NCBI RefSeq assembly: GCF_964275005.1
Contig: NC_092688.1
Span: 26,452,934-26,516,933 of the forward strand
Direction of reading: 5' to 3'
DNA length: 64,000 nt
Source of the DNA: Diadema setosum
Lineage: Eukaryota; Echinodermata; Echinoidea; Diadematoida; Diadematidae
Part shown: piece after piece, positions 3,435 through 19,893 of the stretch
Layout of the letters: each line of letters begins with the position of its first letter
Position numbering within the stretch: the stretch's first letter is position 1
Notes under the pieces: generated by a model
The model's input: the letters and a program-made list of their open reading frames with translations, nothing else
Told to the model about the DNA's origin: nothing
The model's database searches: none
Program-made: the position numbers and the translations under genes

Positions 3435-3709
3435 AAGAGAATATTCCTTGCAGCTATTGTTGATGTATCATTTCAATTGTCATTTTTTGTTTCTAATGGG
3501 TTTAAAGCCCCGCCCCCATTCCTGCAGTCATGCAAACATATTTACAATGACCTGAAATCAATCATATTTGTGTGTATTATTTCTTAAAATTCCTCACTTC
3601 ATTATTCAACAATAGAGAAGCAAATGTCTATTTTTAAACGCAACTTTTGGAGGGAGAGAGACAGGCGGACTTTTTTTTTTTCATTAATTAGTGTGGAAGT
3701 GTGCCTGGA

Positions 3710-3743
3710 TATAAATACTGCTCAGTCCCATAGTGTCACTCAA
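3710..3743 (+). promoter_or_regulatory. TATA box and initiator-like site of gene A
   Basis: TATAAA at 3710-3715 lies 124 bp upstream of the gene A start codon. An initiator-like TCACTCA at 3737-3743 lies about 29 bp downstream of the TATA box, which is normal spacing. The first coding exon and a strong splice donor follow without an in-frame obstacle. Computational reading only; the transcription start is not proven. Confidence 0.5.
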
Positions 3744-3833
3744 AGTCTCGGTACCGTTGCTCCTGATCACATCTGCCATCCGATAGATATTATACTACAG
3801 TAGGCTACATTTCGGCGAAGAGTAAATTGCATC

Positions 3834-3863
3834 ATGGACTTAGCTGAAAACTCTATTGGAAAG
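3834..3863 (+). CDS. Gene A exon 1 (coding part)
   Basis: Encodes MDLAENSIGK and ends AAG|GTAATA, phase 0. It is assigned to gene A by matching phase with exon 2 and by the upstream TATA box. Confidence 0.6.
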
Positions 3864-6800
3864 GTAATATTTTCTTAGTTATTGATTTGGTATATTGCAT
3901 AGTTTCCCCATAAAGCGCCATCCACCATATTTTTGTCATTTGTCTGCGGTTTGACATGTTATGTCTTTGATTGTTTTTGATTTTTTTTTATGTGCGTGTG
4001 TGTGCGAGCGTTTGTGTGTTTTCTTAAGATACTTTAGTTGGAGATAATTAATATTTTGCTTTACTCTTATGGTTGTTTTCATCTCCCATTTACATATCTT
4101 TATCTCTATTAACATCGTCATTGTGTGAATTTACAATCTTCATTTGATCATCATACAACTTTCTGAATTTCATCCCATAAAAAAAATCCATCGTATTTTG
4201 TATGTGATGCATTGCCCCAGTAGGTTTGGCAGAGCAGTTCCGAGAGAGCTAAAAGGGCTACCCTGCTAAAAGAAAACGAAATTAAGTATAGGTTTTCCCG
4301 GCCAGTTTCGCACTTTTGTCAGTCCAATTCCTTATTGCTGCATTCAATTCAGCAAATTTTAGGGTATATGACATTTTTGGTAGTTCTATTTTATGATCTC
4401 TTCATTCAAATTCATTTTGGAGCATTCAAATTACTTTCAACCTCATTCTAATTAACACTTGAAGAGTTTGTTCGCAAAAAAAAACGATAAGTCCATTTTT
4501 GAAGATTTGGAAGTACTGTCTCTGTCATAAAGTACAAAATAATACCTTTTAAATGATATATTGGTCACTACAAAGGTACATTCTTGAAGTTATGGTCAAA
4601 AGAAGCAAAAATGTTCTTATTATTCTCTTTATTTTTCTTGACCTTTAATCGCAAATATCTCCATTTGGCAAATATGGACTTATCGGTTTTTGCGAACAAA
4701 CTCTTCACTTTTTCAATTGAAATTCATAAAACAGGCATTAAACAGGCGTTATTCGTTCATTCGATTTAGAATTATATAGTCAAGTGATCACGTATTATGC
4801 TGCGTGCGTTCATTCGAATTCATTTTTGAGCGTGCAGTTTTACATCTTTTGCAGTCAAAATAGCACACATGTTTATGCCCTGGTTCTTTCTTTATTTCTT
4901 TAACATAGTAATTGTTTTCTAAGCATCATTATATTTCATACTTTCGTTTTCATTTAAGAGATTTTTGCAAGATTTTTCTTCTTTTTTTTTTTCAATGAAG
5001 ATCGCACTATGGATCACCAGTCCAGGAAAATGTAAAATACAATCATAAGACAAATTAGTGGATTAAAATAATATCATTCTTAGTTGCTGTCCAAATGTGT
5101 AATAATATCTCTTGAAAAAAAGGTAATTATCATTCTACGGAAAAAGGAACTGCAAGGCTGAATGGATATTGAGATCATTATCAAATGGCAAACTGCTAAA
5201 TTTTGTCCTCCATGATGACAGTGTCTAAAATATATATGAAGAGTTTGTTTGCAAAAACCGATAAGTCCATATTTGTCAAATGGAGATATTTGCGATTAAA
5301 GGTCAAGAAAAATAAAGAGAATAATAAGAAAATTTTTGCTTCTTTTGACCATAACTTCAAAAATATACCTTTATATGTAGTGACCAATATATCATTTAAA
5401 AGGTATTATTTTGTACTTTATGACAGAGACCGTACTTCAAAATCTTCAAGAATGGACTGATCGGTTTTTGCAAACAAACTATTCATATCTTAATAACACG
5501 AGATGGCATCAGCTATACGCAGTACCCTATGTCATGACGGTACCCCGTGGTTCCAATTCGTACATCATATTGTTATAACTCATGTCTTAATAAATCATGT
5601 GAAAGTTATCTTTTTTACTATGATTGTAAATATAATCAGTTATCAATTTTGTAATAATGATGATTATTATTTGGAAATCCCCCCCCCAAAAAAAAAAAAA
5701 AATTAATAAGAAGAATATGAATTTAATCTATCGTCACATTCTGATCAAGAGATTGGATTTAGGACTACCTGACAGTGGACTGCTTTATTTTTCAATCCCC
5801 TTTATTCTGATATATCGAGCATTTTGTGTGTGCTTCTTTTTTCTCCTACAATGTATGTAACAAGACACAGCCACTGATTGAGTATTTTGTTGTTTCTTTC
5901 TTGTCATTCTCTTACTACATCTGCGTTTCTCATCATCGTTGTTATTTGTTTCTTAGTGTCATTAATATCAATACAGTTATGTAATCATCAGTACTTTTGA
6001 TATTAATGTCATAAGTGTTCTTACCTCCAGTGAATTTACTTTACTATCTTCATAAACCATCATCCTCATAATCTACGGACTATCACAAAAAATTTCATAA
6101 TTTCCGTTGTTACTTTGTTGTAGTGAATAATTCTTTTCACAATTTTCCATACCAGAAGGCAACACCTTCTCACAGTGAGACGGTAGTTGTGACACCAGCT
6201 ATGAAAACTAGTCGCCTTGTTGCCGTCGGTGTCATGTGCGTTGTCATCGTTTCCGTGATTGGAGCGTTTGTTATTGGGACAGCGCTGATCGTTCAGCGCG
6301 ATAACTGTCCCGTGAAGGACTGCTCTGAGGGGTTGAGCGAGGACATGACGAGCACAAAAATCATTGAGACTGATACTGTAAGTTCCTAAAGAAAACAAAA
6401 CAAAAAGTAATTTAAAAGACAAGAAACAAAAGACGTTATCATTGCCAGTGCTAACTATCACGACCTCTACAACAGCAAATAGGTGTAATGAAGGTTAAAA
6501 TAAAACGGGATGATAATAACAATCACCATATCAATTATTGTAATAGCGACGAAATAATGATAACAGTGATGATAGCTTACAATATATAAAGTCATAATAA
6601 AATTGCTGCTAATGACAATGATTTAAATGCAGAGTGCACAAAACCTCATGTGTAATATGCTTGTGTGTGTTCGTGTGTGTGTTTCTTTACGTGTGCTTCC
6701 TTTACTAACATTTTACACTCTTTTTCTTTTGTAAGTCAAATTCATTGAGTTGCGCTCGTTTCAAGCTTGTCTCAACGTTTGCCCCTCTTTCTCAACGATA

Positions 6801-8636
6801 CTTAGTAGTTTCATAATGAATTGATTATGCAAATACTCTTTTTTGTCCTCAGCTTTACATGCAGTCGTATTATACATAATTGTTTCAAAAACAGTGATTC
6901 GTTGTATTTGCATTCTCAAAGACTCTGTGAAATTGGAAATAAGATTTGAATTAAATTGGACCTACATGAATTAGATTGAAGATGTAAAAAGGCAATCCTG
7001 GAAAAAAGAATAGTACATAAATAGTATACATAATAATGTAAAAGAATATAATACATATAATACATAAAATCATAACCCCAAAACAATCAGGAGAGGGTGA
7101 AACTTCGAAAAATACAATTCAATCAGTATGATGATGGTTCATATTATGAAGTATGTATTGTCTTGCCATTTAAACTTTGTGAGAAAATTTCCAAGTAAAA
7201 TAACTGTATATTATATACGCATTAAAACTTCGATCTTTCGAATAGGTTCTTACATGCCACCAAAACAGAGCTACCAAGTCTCACGCATTCTGCGTGAGAC
7301 TCAAGCGTCTCACGATCTCACGCATAGCATACATTTTTCTCATGCATCTTGCGAAGTCTTCAACTTAGGCCCTTAATAATGAACATAGCTCAAAAGATTA
7401 AAGTGATAATTGCAATTGAAGGTATAGGCCCCTATTTTCCTTTTGTCTTTCAAAATAAGTAAAAAATAATCACTTAAGTATGCACCTGATATTACCATTA
7501 CGAGTTAAAGATTGAAAAAGCTCCCTATCGTGGAAGGCCACAGGGGGGGGGACCCCTCCCACACCCTCGCTCGCGCGCACATTCGCTCACCGAGATGCCG
7601 AGTCATGAAAATCTCACTCATAATTTTTTTTTTTTTTTTTTTTTAACTTGGCATCCCTGCAAACAGCAAAGAGACTTTGTTATTATTATAATCATTACAA
7701 TGATACATGTATCAATGCTATCGGCGCTAACAAAGGCTCGGCTATATTTCATGTCCAGACCAAATAGCTAATGACTATGTAGATTCTGAAGAGGAAAAAG
7801 AAGAAGAGGAAGTGCTAACAAAAATATGAAAATGACTCATTATGAGAATAATAACTTGACGTTGTTAATAACAATAACGATAACAGCATAACTGATGTTT
7901 TAATTTTTTGATAAATGGATAGTATGATAATAAATAGTGATGACATTATCGTGGTAATTTCAATAATAACGATAATAATAAGCTGATGTATTTTTTTGTG
8001 TGTATGTGTGTGTGTGTGTGCAAAATATTCATTATATATTGTTGTCAAACGGTTACATTGAATACAAAGATTGCAGGGTCCATTGATACAGATAAGATTG
8101 ACTAAAACACTAAATTGATAAGATTAGATTAGATTTGATTAGATGAGACACCGCTAGATTAGAGAAGATTAAATTTGATTAGGTTTGACTAGATTAAAGC
8201 AAACTGGTCAAACTGATGTTCTGAAGTGCAACTCTAAGCCCTAAGTGATTAACCGTGAAAGGAAGAGCGGAATTACGATATAAGTGACTGGTGTGTATGG
8301 TTAGCCTATACAAATTTATTTACTTTGCTTCAATCCTATTTAACTGCAATCTCTAACCAGTCCATGGAGGTAATGAAAATCGGAGACGACGGAGAAATGA
8401 TGATGGAGACAATGGAATTCATGGCAGATTCTAACACGGCCCTCATCGAGACTCCGGGGAACTTCACCGGCTCCTCCCCCGCAACGTTCGCTGTCGACTT
8501 CGATCGAGTGAGTTATTCCACCGCCACGGCTCTTTGTTGTGGGTTTCTTGTGTATCACGCCAATGATATAAACTAAAGTTGCAGAAGGAGAAAGAGGGGG
8601 CAGAATGTTAATGCATCAAGTGAGATAGAAAATTTT

Positions 8637-8667
<31 letters not shown>

Positions 8668-11600
8668 GATTTTTGAAAAGCCATCAACATTCAATCAATT
8701 GGAGGGACATAACACGAGAATGAAGATAAGCAAACAGTCTGAATATAATGATACAAAGAACTTTCATTAGCTCGGGATGATCATGCAATAGGAAGGTAAG
8801 GCTTCTGACAACCTTTAGTAGTTTTGCTGTAAAAATTTGCCTGTAAAAATTCCTCGAGCTAAATAGTTTCACCGTTTCTCTTGCCCCGTTTGTTTCCTGA
8901 TCATCAGACTGAAGAGCGGGGATAAATTGTATCCTGAACCCGTAAAGAGAGGGTAATCTACTTTTTTTTTCTTTCTCTTACTGTGGCATCATTCCATCCG
9001 TGAAAAAGCCTTTGAAAAGACTTTTTTGATGCAAAAACAAAAATGAAAAAGTCCATTTAAATTAAGATAATCAGATTGTTTTTCTGACTATTTTTGCTGT
9101 TTTACGGGTATGTGTCCCGCCAAATTACAAAACAGTTATAAATAAAGTAAGAGGGGCATGTGCTGGGAAGTATAAATATTTTGAGTACATTCTGCTATGT
9201 ACAATCAATCATGCAAGCAATAATTAATTATTGTTGTAGTGATAAGGGAAATTCATTCATCATTTCATTATCATTTTCTTGATCTTTTCACAGAATGTTG
9301 TCTTCGTGAACATTCACGATGTTAACTCGTGCGTTGGCTTCGCTCTGCGACAGGACTTTTCGACTTCCTTCAAATCTTTTCTTCGCGGTGACAGTAACGA
9401 GGTATTATTGGCATCATACTTTCCCACCATTATCTCCTTTTCGGATGCTTCGATTACTTTTTCCCCCTCCCCTTTGTTAATTTGGATGTTGTTATAGAAT
9501 ACGCTTCTATCGGAGTTTTTTTTTTTTTTTTTTTTTTTTTGGTATTAGTCCTACAACATGTGGTCAGTGCCGACAGTGACTATTCTGAGCAAAGTGTTTG
9601 TTAATACAGTCACTCCAACCTTTACTTCCCTTCCTTTATTACTATTTAAGGTTTGATTGCAGAAAGTGCTAATGGCTATTTATATTTCAAACATGCTCAA
9701 GTGAGTTAATCATCGGATAAAGCAAAATGAAAAAAGATCCCATTAAACAACAATTACTAAATAACAACGAACATTATGAAGGTTATGATTAATACTTTCC
9801 CATGTATTCGTGCATTATATTTGAGTCAGCTTAAATCAGACATATTTTAAATTTACAATACGAGAGTTGACTCAATTTCGATCAATCTCTTCATCTGTAT
9901 TTTACAAATTTCTGATTAAGGACCCTGATTTAAAGGGATCGGTTTTGGTAGAGACCTTATTTCAGGTTTCTAAAATTGTTTGGTGAACTAATGAGAAACC
10001 TCTTATGAAATATGAAAGAGCATTCATAATTTATGAGGAATTCAACGTTTATTTGATGAAAATTGGTTTTGAAATGGCTAAGATATCCAAAAAAGAGCGA
10101 TTCTGATGAAGTGTGTGACCCACCCTTAATTATTACGATCGTTTTGTTTTACATTGGGTGTTTCAGTCATTCCAAACCCGATTTTTATCAAATAAACTTT
10201 GAATTCCTCTTATAATTGTATATGCTCTGCACTATATCATTTTTTTTTAGTATCTCACAAAAAGTTAAAAGCCCAATTCTTAACTTCACCAATACTGTAC
10301 CATCCCTTTCAAAGGAAGAGAAAACTAAATTAATATACAAATTAACATGGAACATTGTTTCAGTAGGGGAGCTTCTGCATTGAAGACACTGTTCCTTCAT
10401 TGGATCAACCATTATTTTGTTTGTCAATATTTATCCATTCTGCAGGAAATTCTAACATTCCCATTATACACTGTTCTGCAGGTTTCCGTAGGGAAAGGTC
10501 TAACGCGCAAAATGATTCCTTTCCTCAACTCTGAGTTACAGAGGTGCTTAGAAAAAAAAAGTGTTAGTCTCTACATTGTTTTCCTTTTCCAAGGCTGTTA
10601 TTTTTGATAAGTAATAAAATCAGTTAGGTTAAGTATTACTTCTTTGCTATAGCTTCATTTTGCTATCTTAGTATACAATAACAAAAGGCGAATCCCATAG
10701 TAAAGAGACACAATAGTACAAAAAGCATTCCGTTTCGCAGCTTCGGTTATATTTAACACTTTCTCACTTAACGACAACTTTAAGATTTTATGTGACATTA
10801 ATTATGAAAAAAAAAATCCTATTTACATAGCCATGTATCCATTCTTAAAATAATTTTCTGTGCTTTGAATTGTAGTTTGACGATTTGGATACTCCATTAT
10901 ACGTTTGTGAGTGGTACCGGCGATGATGATGAATTATTTACATAATAAGAGTGCAGAAGATGAAAGGAAGGAAGACGAGAAAGGAATGGACATATAGGAA
11001 CAATTACACGGTACCTTTTTATCATCAAAGTTACTGTACAGCATGAACACCTCAGCCACTCACTGGAATCAATTTGCCGCTCCGTGCCATCAGTTGTGCT
11101 GGGGGAATATGAAATACACTACAACATTACTACTATTGCCTGATCGCTTTCAAATTTTCAGTCGTAAATAAATAGGCCTAAATAAAATGTAATCATCATT
11201 ACCATTAAACATGTAACTATAGCACACACACACGCACGCACAAACACACATACACACCTGTTAAAAAAACATCGCTAGAGTAAAAAAAAAAAAAAAATAA
11301 ATGTCATGCTGCTCAAGGACACAGATTAGGGAGTTTCGCTACACAACGAGAAGACCTTTACGCGGAAGCAATCACCTGTGATAGTCCCCGTACTCTTACT
11401 CCCGACACCATTATCTAGGCAGTTTCGCTTTCATGGTAGGACGGAGGCGTGGGGACAAGATCGCTGATTGGCTGGCTGGCTGGCTGGCTCACACCTGCCC
11501 AGCTGCATCGGGACCGAACGCTATTTTGGCGAATACCGTCCTCGTTTTCCCCAGGACGGGACGTTTCTCGGATTTGATCATGCGCAGAAGCAAACTTTGC

Positions 11601-11966
11601 ACACAGCACTCTCAAATAAAGGCTGCGTCGTACTTGCGAAAACTCCCTATAGTGTCGTGACATGGGGGCGAACCTATACCTTCTCAATGAAAGGCATGTA
11701 AACGAGAGAATTTTCTTCTCACATTATAGGTGACGATCGTCTCTTCCCAAGTTCTCACCGAGAAGTACATTAATGCTGGCAGGATTCCATCCCGGTACTT
11801 GCAAGCCGCGAATGGACCAATCATAAGTGGAATGTGCGCCGGAAGGGACACTGATTGGCTGGAATATGACGTCGAAGGAACACGCCGTCTTGCGAAGCGG
11901 GGCCCATACGTCAGTATTAGAGTCTGCGCGTGGTTTGTGTGTGTCATCATTATAGTAGCACTGTAG
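3834..11966 (+). CDS. Gene A: BRICHOS-domain type II membrane protein with two-Cys C-terminal tail
   Basis: Five exons join in phase 0: 3834-3863, 6156-6377, 8361-8507, 9294-9401 and 11730-11966, giving 247 residues. The start ATG has A at -3 and G at +4. Residues 1-30 are cytoplasmic and end in KTSR. Residues 31-56 form one hydrophobic membrane segment. A Met/Glu-rich stem follows with an N-glycosylation sequon at N118. Residues about 125-220 fit a BRICHOS domain: ATFAVDFDR with the conserved Asp (D130), Cys146 in VNSCVGFAL, and Cys205 in IISGMCAGRDTDWLEYD. BRICHOS domains are chaperone-like regions of secreted or type II proproteins (ITM2B, chondromodulin, surfactant protein C, annelid arenicins). 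After the domain comes RRLAKR (221-226), a possible convertase site, then 21 residues with two cysteines. The last boundary is uncertain: GTCAGT at 11910 could act as a donor and remove the tail. Confidence 0.72.
4461..4706. mobile_element. MITE, GAAGAGTTTGTTCGC family, copy 1
   Basis: 246-bp element in gene A intron 1, with inverted ends GAAGAGTTTGTTCGCAAAA and TTTTGCGAACAAACTCTTC. It is flanked by ACTT on both sides, consistent with a 4-bp target duplication. Its interior is the reverse complement of copy 2 at 5238. Confidence 0.85.
5238..5484. mobile_element. MITE, GAAGAGTTTGTTCGC family, copy 2
   Basis: 247-bp copy in the same intron, opposite orientation to copy 1, flanked by ATAT on both sides. 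Apparent ORFs in it mirror those in copies 1 and 3 and carry no known protein. Confidence 0.85.
6156..6377 (+). CDS. Gene A exon 2: cytoplasmic end and membrane anchor
   Basis: Acceptor CCATACCAG|AAG, donor ACT|GTAAGT, phase 0 to 0, 74 codons. It encodes a basic KTSR stop, a 26-residue hydrophobic segment rich in V, I and G, then QRDNCPVKDC. The positive residues before the segment favour an N-in, type II orientation. Confidence 0.75.
6378..8360. other. Gene A intron 2
   Basis: About 2 kb, AT-rich. It contains short GT runs (6660, 8000), a poly-T run, and an imperfect segment of CTCACGCAT/GCGTGAGAC repeats at 7260-7330. A GC-rich block at 7520-7610 looks like part of a dispersed repeat. No coding signal was seen. 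Confidence 0.5.
8361..8507 (+). CDS. Gene A exon 3: stem and start of BRICHOS domain
   Basis: Acceptor CTAACCAG|TCC, donor CGA|GTGAGT, phase 0 to 0, 49 codons. It carries an acidic Met-rich stem, the NFT glycosylation sequon, and the first BRICHOS strand ATFAVDFDR. Confidence 0.75.
8640..8668. repeat. (GA)n microsatellite
   Basis: GA run in gene A intron 3. Confidence 0.85.
9294..9401 (+). CDS. Gene A exon 4: BRICHOS core with first cysteine
   Basis: Acceptor CTTTTCACAG|AAT, donor GAG|GTATTA, phase 0 to 0, 36 codons. It encodes NVVFVNIHDVNSCVGFALR, which matches the BRICHOS pattern of a beta strand followed by the first conserved Cys. Confidence 0.75.
9930..10312. mobile_element. TTAAAGGGA palindromic element, copy 1
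   Basis: Long inverted-repeat element in gene A intron 4. Left-arm motifs (TGAGAAACCTCTTATGA, AACGTTTATTTGATGA, TGGCTAAGATATCCAAAA) recur inverted on the right. A second copy lies at 26711-27109. The ends resemble TTAAAGGGA/TCCCTTT. Confidence 0.7.
11325..11651. mobile_element. TTAGGGAG-terminated element
   Basis: ATTAGGGAGTTTCGC at the left and GCGAAAACTCCCTA at the right form inverted ends about 320 bp apart, directly upstream of gene A exon 5. The ends resemble those of the elements at 15193 and 35354. The overlapping ORFs on both strands show no recognisable protein. Confidence 0.5.
11730..11966 (+). CDS. Gene A exon 5: BRICHOS end, Lys-Arg site, C-terminal tail
   Basis: Acceptor ACATTATAG|GTG, phase 0. 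It encodes the second BRICHOS Cys in GMCAGRDTDWLEYD, then RRLAKR and a 21-residue tail with CX4C spacing and a hydrophobic end, then TAG. An AATAAA lies at 12028-12033 inside an A-rich run. The alternative donor at 11910 would end the exon after KRGPY in phase 0, but I found no convincing phase-0 exon downstream. Confidence 0.65.
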   Translation: MTIVSSQVLTEKYINAGRIPSRYLQAANGPIISGMCAGRDTDWLEYDVEGTRRLAKRGPYVSIRVCAWFVCVIIIVAL

Positions 11967-12641
11967 AAAAAGTGATGCATGACGTTTTACGCTTGTGGCG
12001 AAATTGTGTTGCTGAATTAAAAAAAAAAATAAAACCAACAGTTTAAAGTGTACCCACTTGCATATTCAGATTTTCACTTGCATAATCAGATTTTTGTTTT
12101 TACCTTTAATAATACTGAGTCTTCACGTAAGTTTCACGTAAGTTGTATTTTATCCGGGGGGGGGGGGAGGCGACCTTACTTATTTCGATCAATTTTCTAC
12201 ACTTATATGATTATGCAGGCTATACCTCAAGGATCGCGTTATATCAAGGATAAAAAAAAAAACCACAATAGACTTTGTTCAGGAACAGCAATGTTAAGAA
12301 ATTAAATGAGTTAAACTCCTCCATGCCTTATCACAAACAAACAAAAATTGAATGGTTTTGGGACTTGCATTTGAACATTAAAGATCGGTTTCATTATCAT
12401 ATTGGGTACCAAAATTTCGGGATTTATATAAGATTTGGTTGAGCAGTAATGTTTTCAAAATTCGTAACAGATCACGATGAACAGGGATAACGACGTAGCA
12501 GCTTCACAAACGAATGCCTGATTGGGTGCTCAGTATTGAAAAGCAGAATAAACGAAGAAAGAATGCAAGGTGCATTTGGCTGGTAAAATGGTATGGGGAT
12601 GGAATTACATTTCTACATCAGTAGAATATGTGAGCCCTATA

Positions 12642-19808: not shown

Positions 19809-19893
<85 letters not shown>

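Follow-up and report, generated by a model that had tools for sequence, protein, structure and literature searches.

What does the 64,000-nucleotide stretch of Diadema setosum analysed here (NC_092688.1, positions 26,452,934 to 26,516,933; hereafter the window) encode in the gene that was predicted in it from its letters alone, namely a membrane-anchored, BRICHOS-like proprotein ending in a two-cysteine peptide, and what might such a peptide do? We found that the gene belongs to a Diadema gene family with 15 or more loci, and its gene structure, its family, the sequences of the C-terminal tails and the selection acting on the domain were all established directly. On this basis we consider it probable that the window gene is functional and belongs, as a divergent member, to a family of type II membrane proproteins, which free Cys-bearing C-terminal peptides.

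The window gene and its family in Diadema

The window gene comprises five exons with AG/GT borders throughout, which join without any change of frame into 247 codons and a stop, and its four introns are all in phase 0 (Table 1). The encoded protein begins with a short N-terminus and a 26-residue hydrophobic segment, followed by a two-Cys linker, a domain carrying Asp130, Cys146 and Cys205, the sequence RRLAKR and a tail of 21 residues. Exon 1 and the TATA-bearing promoter were conserved in a paralogue on contig C3 (hereafter C3). The borders, the phases and the comparison of paralogues thus confirmed the five-exon gene with a two-Cys tail after Lys-Arg that had been predicted. A donor-like GTCAGT in phase 0 at position 11910 raised the possibility that exon 5 is spliced there to an unseen exon and that the 21-residue tail is an artefact. 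However, the last exon remained open to a stop behind the Cys tail in 14 of 14 paralogues, no relative used a donor of this type, and the CX4C of the window tail aligned with the CX4C of C3; the suggestion of a misplaced exon end, made together with the original prediction, therefore found no support. When the three + strand frames between 11967 and 20000 were scanned for motifs, no four-Cys stretch was detected, except for a simple repeat at 19810. Together with the absence of such splicing in the relatives, this largely answered the doubt, and we regard splicing at 11910 as highly improbable.

Protein searches among 5.8 billion sequences (E ≤ 10, with shared five-residue words needed for a match) returned 7, 12 and 13 matches, which came exclusively from D. 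setosum and D. antillarum; the seven relatives of the window protein itself had E values of 5e-41 to 5e-39. No relatives outside Diadema, and no annelid precursors, were among these matches, which by design require shared words. With a D. antillarum relative and the window protein as queries, the matches in the 912.7 Mb genome assembly grouped into at least 15 loci: the window gene (contig C4), C3, one on C11 and twelve on C15. This number is a minimum, because the counts from genome searches are lower bounds. Contamination is an unlikely source of these genes, since they lie at several places on contigs that measure 38 to 49 Mb (C3, C11 and C15), contain introns and have relatives in two species.

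The gene plan was shared by the whole family. Exons 3, 4 and 5 had phase-0 AG/GT borders at all 15 loci, with exon 3 always 147 nt long and exon 4 of 108 nt in the window gene and C3 and of 111 nt in the other 13. A phase-0 GT was found at the end of exon 2, or at most 3 bases away, at every locus, and a phase-0 AG at most 9 bases from its start at 14 of the 15 (the one without was L028; exon 2 of one C15 gene was located in a separate sequence piece, L034). The short exon 1 was also found at all three further loci inspected besides the window gene and C3. Domain end and tail shared one exon at all 15 loci, and the tails were 16-30 residues long, with two to five Cys. In 14 of 15 genes the tail was immediately preceded by KR, RR or R-x-x-R; only C3 differed, with GQR at this place and RR slightly upstream. 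In a tree of 20 domains (with the D. antillarum proteins limited to P0001, P0002, P0006, P0007 and P0011), the window gene and C3 formed one clade with a support of 1.00, on a long branch apart from the rest. The 111-residue fragment P0013, whose Cys spacing is meaningless, was left out of the alignments, and the model of P0012 is shortened and lacks the second Cys.

We also noticed that the C3 gene (C3:29822066-29827390) and the window gene on C4 were missing among the annotated proteins that the searches returned, whereas members on C15 and C11 were present; the two are probably unannotated. Exon 2 of L024 (C15:30016635-30016871) contained one in-frame stop, whereas its close D. antillarum relative P0006 was open; this may be an allele, an error or a pseudogene.

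The identity of the domain

BRICHOS domains carry a conserved Asp and two Cys (PMC9627735, PMC9714404). All 20 aligned domains had these three residues unchanged, with the disulphide itself being predicted. The spacing D-x15-C was found in the window protein and in P0001-P0012, and the distance between the two Cys was 59 in the window protein as in Bri2, and 60-61 in the 11 relatives carrying both. The structure matches of relatives indicated a BRICHOS fold: 2yad was the top row in both VIA tables, 3.5 and 2.2 Z units above the best non-BRICHOS row, and it was covered almost entirely. The order of hydrophobic segment, linker, BRICHOS, convertase site and beta-prone C-terminal region was also present, and AlphaFold placed a two-strand hairpin at the C-terminus, with low confidence. 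This supported the notion of a BRICHOS-like proprotein that is anchored near its N-terminus, carries a site of the convertase type and may release a Cys peptide.

The Pfam results weigh in part against this assignment. The absence of a BRICHOS hit had been named in advance as grounds for giving up the prediction, and in Pfam this is literally the case for the window protein, which did not match PF04089, as did neither the C3, L028 nor L031 proteins. Pointing in the opposite direction are the structure matches of the relatives and two sub-threshold PF04089 matches among the 12 database members (16.7 and 18.2 bits against a cut-off of 25), which extended over positions 3-88 of 91; a Bri2 fragment, used as a positive control, scored 75.2 bits. 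A single Bri2 sequence had no detectable similarity to the family, either by hhalign or by pairwise alignment with shuffles, and neither the window protein nor the family profile had a relevant match in PDB sequence searches. The whole-genome search for the BRICHOS family gave no matches here, and likewise none in 14 control genomes, so that it is uninformative on absence. Matches to DUF4488, Chordopox_A33R, zf-RAG1, DUF179, DUF2561, DUF4883, DUF7011 and NCBIfam models fell below their own cut-offs wherever a score was printed. The domain could, alternatively, have another half-barrel-plus-helix fold, of the ependymin-related or LolA kind, and resemble BRICHOS proproteins by convergence. We find this improbable in view of the lead and the near-complete coverage of 2yad, the extension of the sub-threshold matches over nearly the whole profile, the invariant Asp and Cys pair with Bri2-like spacing, and the fitting proprotein architecture.

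Three weak C15 matches (29233499, 31006677 and 31024626; E 0.06-0.7) were not counted among the 15 loci. Each had one open stretch resembling the domain end (L041 4000-4150, L042 4678-4820 and L043 4746-4600 on the - strand; C15 at about 29.23, 31.007 and 31.025 Mb), with a best E of 2.6e-7 and 39% identity to P0004. The sequence pieces around the three yielded no exon bearing the Asp-Cys motif upstream of the stretches, and the L041 stretch had no Pfam match. They possibly represent another group of BRICHOS-like genes, more distant than the family described here.

Tail sequences and the selection acting on them

We searched the PDB with six tails (P0006, window, L026, L030, C11 and C3). The P0006 tail gave 12 matches with arenicin-3 at the top (E 1.9e-5, 14 of 19 residues identical), the others being arenicin-1, arenicin-2, AA139, Ap9, NZ17074(N1), N2, N6, two chimeric peptides and the BRICHOS protein peptide 7ald, which we take to be capitellacin. 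The L026 tail matched the same arenicin group (best E 4.8e-4), and the tails of L030, C11, C3 and the window gene had no PDB matches. The sequence CAYVCAYVNGFR(V/L)CYRRCW was present in the tails of L023 (annotated as P0004), L024 and L025 and of the D. antillarum proteins P0002 and P0006. The arenicin-3 spacing C-x3-C-x8-C-x3-C occurred in seven of the 15 tails (L023, L024, L025, L026, L029, L030 and L033), and the charge ranged from +3 to +4 in L023-L025 and was -4 in L035. The suggestion that the arenicin arrangement has a counterpart in deuterostomes thus gained its strongest support from the paralogues and from the relative whose tail matches arenicin-3.

Two further tails were noticed. 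In L022 (C11), the last exon (about 5568-5810) ends in ...CYWRWYG before the stop, and the terminal Gly could serve C-terminal amidation. The annotated tail of P0007 (D. antillarum) has no Cys and does not resemble those of its D. setosum relatives; either the gene model may be shifted or the peptide may be another one.

As in arenicin-type precursors, the window protein ends in a peptide of about 20 residues directly behind a basic site (21 residues after KR). However, its tail contains CX4C only and not C-x3-C-x8-C-x3-C, and for this reason we did not class it as an arenicin. It is also not a cationic peptide: with a charge of +1 and a grand average of hydropathy (GRAVY) of 2.13 it is by far the most hydrophobic of the 15 tails, and no solved peptide in the PDB resembled it. 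The original prediction had cautioned against a classic antimicrobial role, and for the window member this caution stands. More broadly, the tails might be signalling, venom-like or surfactant-like peptides, and their fast change might reflect another arms race, with predators, gametes or commensals. Many of the tails are hydrophobic and weakly charged, with the window tail and the negatively charged L035 as examples, and vertebrate BRICHOS proteins release C-terminal products that are not antimicrobial, such as Bri23 and chondromodulin. Nevertheless, one subfamily matches arenicin-3 both in sequence and in Cys spacing, and its tail stayed constant while the flanks drifted, so that we consider a non-antimicrobial role for the tails unlikely.

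Selection was estimated from pairwise dN/dS (omega) by the Nei-Gojobori method (NG86) for 15 of the 105 possible pairs; dS was not finite for the window gene with L026, whichever region was taken, nor for L029/L031 in the tail. Domain omega was 0.13-0.35 in 13 of the 14 pairs with a finite value, and the value of 0.85 for L032/L033 was based on 8 changes only. Between the window gene and C3, dN/dS was 0.42 in exon 2 and 0.35 in the domain, and the window domain had fewer unique changes than that of C3 (5 and 10, respectively). Thus, as judged from its sequence, the window gene does not give the impression of being in decay. The tails of these two genes aligned around their common CX4C, and the outer Cys pair of C3 was absent from the window tail, where one end has TAC for TGC and the frame of the other end is shifted by a 4-nt gap. 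This difference, the much higher hydrophobicity of the window tail in comparison to the other 14 and the absence of the gene among the annotated proteins returned could mean that the window gene is drifting towards loss with a nonfunctional peptide, in a family that is defensive overall. The low domain omega, the intact splice sites, the conserved promoter and the smaller number of unique domain changes make this doubtful, and the older state of the tail may be either of the two. Tail likeness to C3 was 0.48 and that of the 3ʹ flank 0.51, indicating that the tail did not change clearly faster, and we therefore claim no positive selection for the window gene.

A different picture was obtained for L026, L032, L033 and L035, whose tails were less alike than both the 3ʹ flank and the intron in six of six pairs (0.42-0.65 in comparison to 0.77-0.86 and 0.79-0.88). 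In one-sided Fisher tests of the tail against the 3ʹ flank, P ranged from 0.017 to 1.6e-7, for six pairs that are not independent as they are formed by four genes. The lowest tails of this subfamily (near 0.44) were at the level of shuffled sequences (mean 0.44), so that these tails may equally have been replaced through conversion or small indels or have changed by stepwise selection. Tail likeness in L023-L025, on the other hand, was 0.94-0.97 with flanks at 0.68-0.86; the tail was kept while the flanks drifted, which points to constraint on the arenicin-like peptide. For L029/L030, tail likeness (0.75) was also above that of the flanks (0.44 and 0.60).

Proposed route and comparison with known systems

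BRICHOS proproteins are built from a hydrophobic segment, a linker, the chaperone domain, a convertase site and a beta-prone end (PMC2751770, PMC9714404, PMC10745061, PMC11767717). From this plan and the anatomy of the Diadema genes we infer the topology, cleavage, disulphides, chaperoning and activity as follows. The anchor would bring the chain into the endoplasmic reticulum, with the C-terminus in the lumen, where the BRICHOS-like domain (Asp130, Cys146-Cys205) would shield the beta-prone C-terminal hairpin during disulphide formation. A furin/kexin-type convertase would then cleave behind the basic site and release a Cys-bearing peptide of 16-30 residues. Judging by the sister tails and by the selection, most of the family peptides are probably membrane-active host-defence peptides of the arenicin type. 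The window copy would give a strongly hydrophobic, barely charged hairpin with the inner CX4C pair only, which it has in common with C3; given these properties, its target may be a lipid or a protein and not the bacterial envelope in general.

The BRICHOS-related antimicrobial peptides of annelids (arenicins, abarenicin, alvinellacin, capitellacin and the HfBRI peptides) have the same order of parts, ending in a basic site and a short Cys peptide, and five Heteromastus precursors are also transmembrane (PMC10745061), as would be those of Diadema. The Diadema genes differ in their echinoderm host, and the window tail in its lack of arenicin spacing and charge. The alvinellacin gene has five introns, the last in phase 1 (PMC4002450), whereas the window gene has four, all in phase 0, with the tail and the domain end in one exon. 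In Alvinella it is the peptide that hardly varies and the BRICHOS part that does (PMC5431198), whereas the tails of one Diadema subfamily are hypervariable. The echinoid strongylocins and centrocins also arise from propeptide precursors; however, their propeptides are short and anionic, and BRICHOS is named for polychaete peptides only in the available text of that review (PMC10608444). The ITM2/Bri family (Bri2 with Bri23) shares with the window protein the type II anchor, BRICHOS, the basic site and a short two-Cys C-terminal peptide, in addition to the Asp-Cys-Cys spacing. The Diadema proteins differ from Bri2 in forming a multigene family with variable tails, apart from their lack of sequence similarity.

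BRICHOS is not new to echinoderms, since echinoderm and amphioxus sequences have been noted in a divergent group (PMC2751770). Reviews assign the antimicrobial peptides linked to BRICHOS to marine polychaetes (PMC10608444, PMC11767717). In the open-access literature, outside which lie most subscription papers and all bioRxiv preprints, we found no report joining the two and no paper linking BRICHOS with Diadema. We are slightly inclined to conclude that the Diadema germline encodes an arsenal of hairpin host-defence peptides chaperoned by BRICHOS, which would be the first such system beyond the annelids, with one conserved scaffold at 15 or more loci and selection on the releasable tail, which is constant in the arenicin-3-like subfamily and in another one changed faster than the adjoining non-coding DNA. 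The arenicin system would then be older than the split of protostomes and deuterostomes, or a near-identical peptide was reinvented on the same scaffold. The same precursor plan and the same Cys frame in several subfamilies speak for common descent with the annelid peptides, and the absence of annelid precursors among the sequence matches, the extra intron and phase 1 of alvinellacin and the fast tails in part of the family speak for convergence; we keep both as alternatives. If the conclusion is true, it either moves the arenicin-type origin back to the bilaterian ancestor or provides a clear example of a 19-residue peptide reached by convergence, and a comparison of echinoid and annelid genomes could decide between the two. 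A conserved scaffold with a variable peptide, opposite to Alvinella, would also be a natural test of how BRICHOS tolerates changes of its client. Moreover, these genes of a reef genus with known disease die-offs would offer new natural hairpin templates for work on peptide antibiotics and amyloid chaperones, one of which is very hydrophobic and has a single Cys pair.

Table 1. Elements of the window gene, in window positions
Feature	Position	Strand	Remarks
TATA-like element	3709..3715	+	within promoter/5ʹ untranslated region/exon 1 stretch 3671-3877, 72% in alignment with the C3 paralogue
Exon 1	3834..3863	+	MDLAENSIGK; MDLAENSSKK in the C3 paralogue, donor at the same place
Exon 2	6156..6377	+	short N-terminal stretch, membrane anchor, start of linker
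Hydrophobic membrane anchor, residues 31-56	6216..6293	+	read from the translation; type II orientation predicted
Exon 3	8361..8507	+	end of linker, start of BRICHOS-like domain; Asp130 codon 8496-8498
Exon 4	9294..9401	+	BRICHOS-like domain; Cys146 codon 9330-9332
Exon 5	11730..11966	+	end of BRICHOS-like domain (Cys205 codon 11835-11837), linker, cleavage site, tail, TAG 11964-11966
Predicted proprotein-convertase site, Lys225-Arg226 in RRLAKR	11895..11900	+	from sequence; basic site before the tail in 14/15 genes
Predicted mature peptide, 21 residues, GPYVSIRVCAWFVCVIIIVAL	11901..11963	+	Cys235 and Cys240 (CX4C), charge +1, GRAVY 2.13
Candidate polyadenylation signals	12016..12033	+	sequence motifs ATTAAA at 12016 and AATAAA at 12028

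Within intron 1, two stretches of about 250 bases (window positions about 4460-4710 and 5236-5485, approximate coordinates) seemed by eye to form an inverted pair, perhaps a small mobile element.

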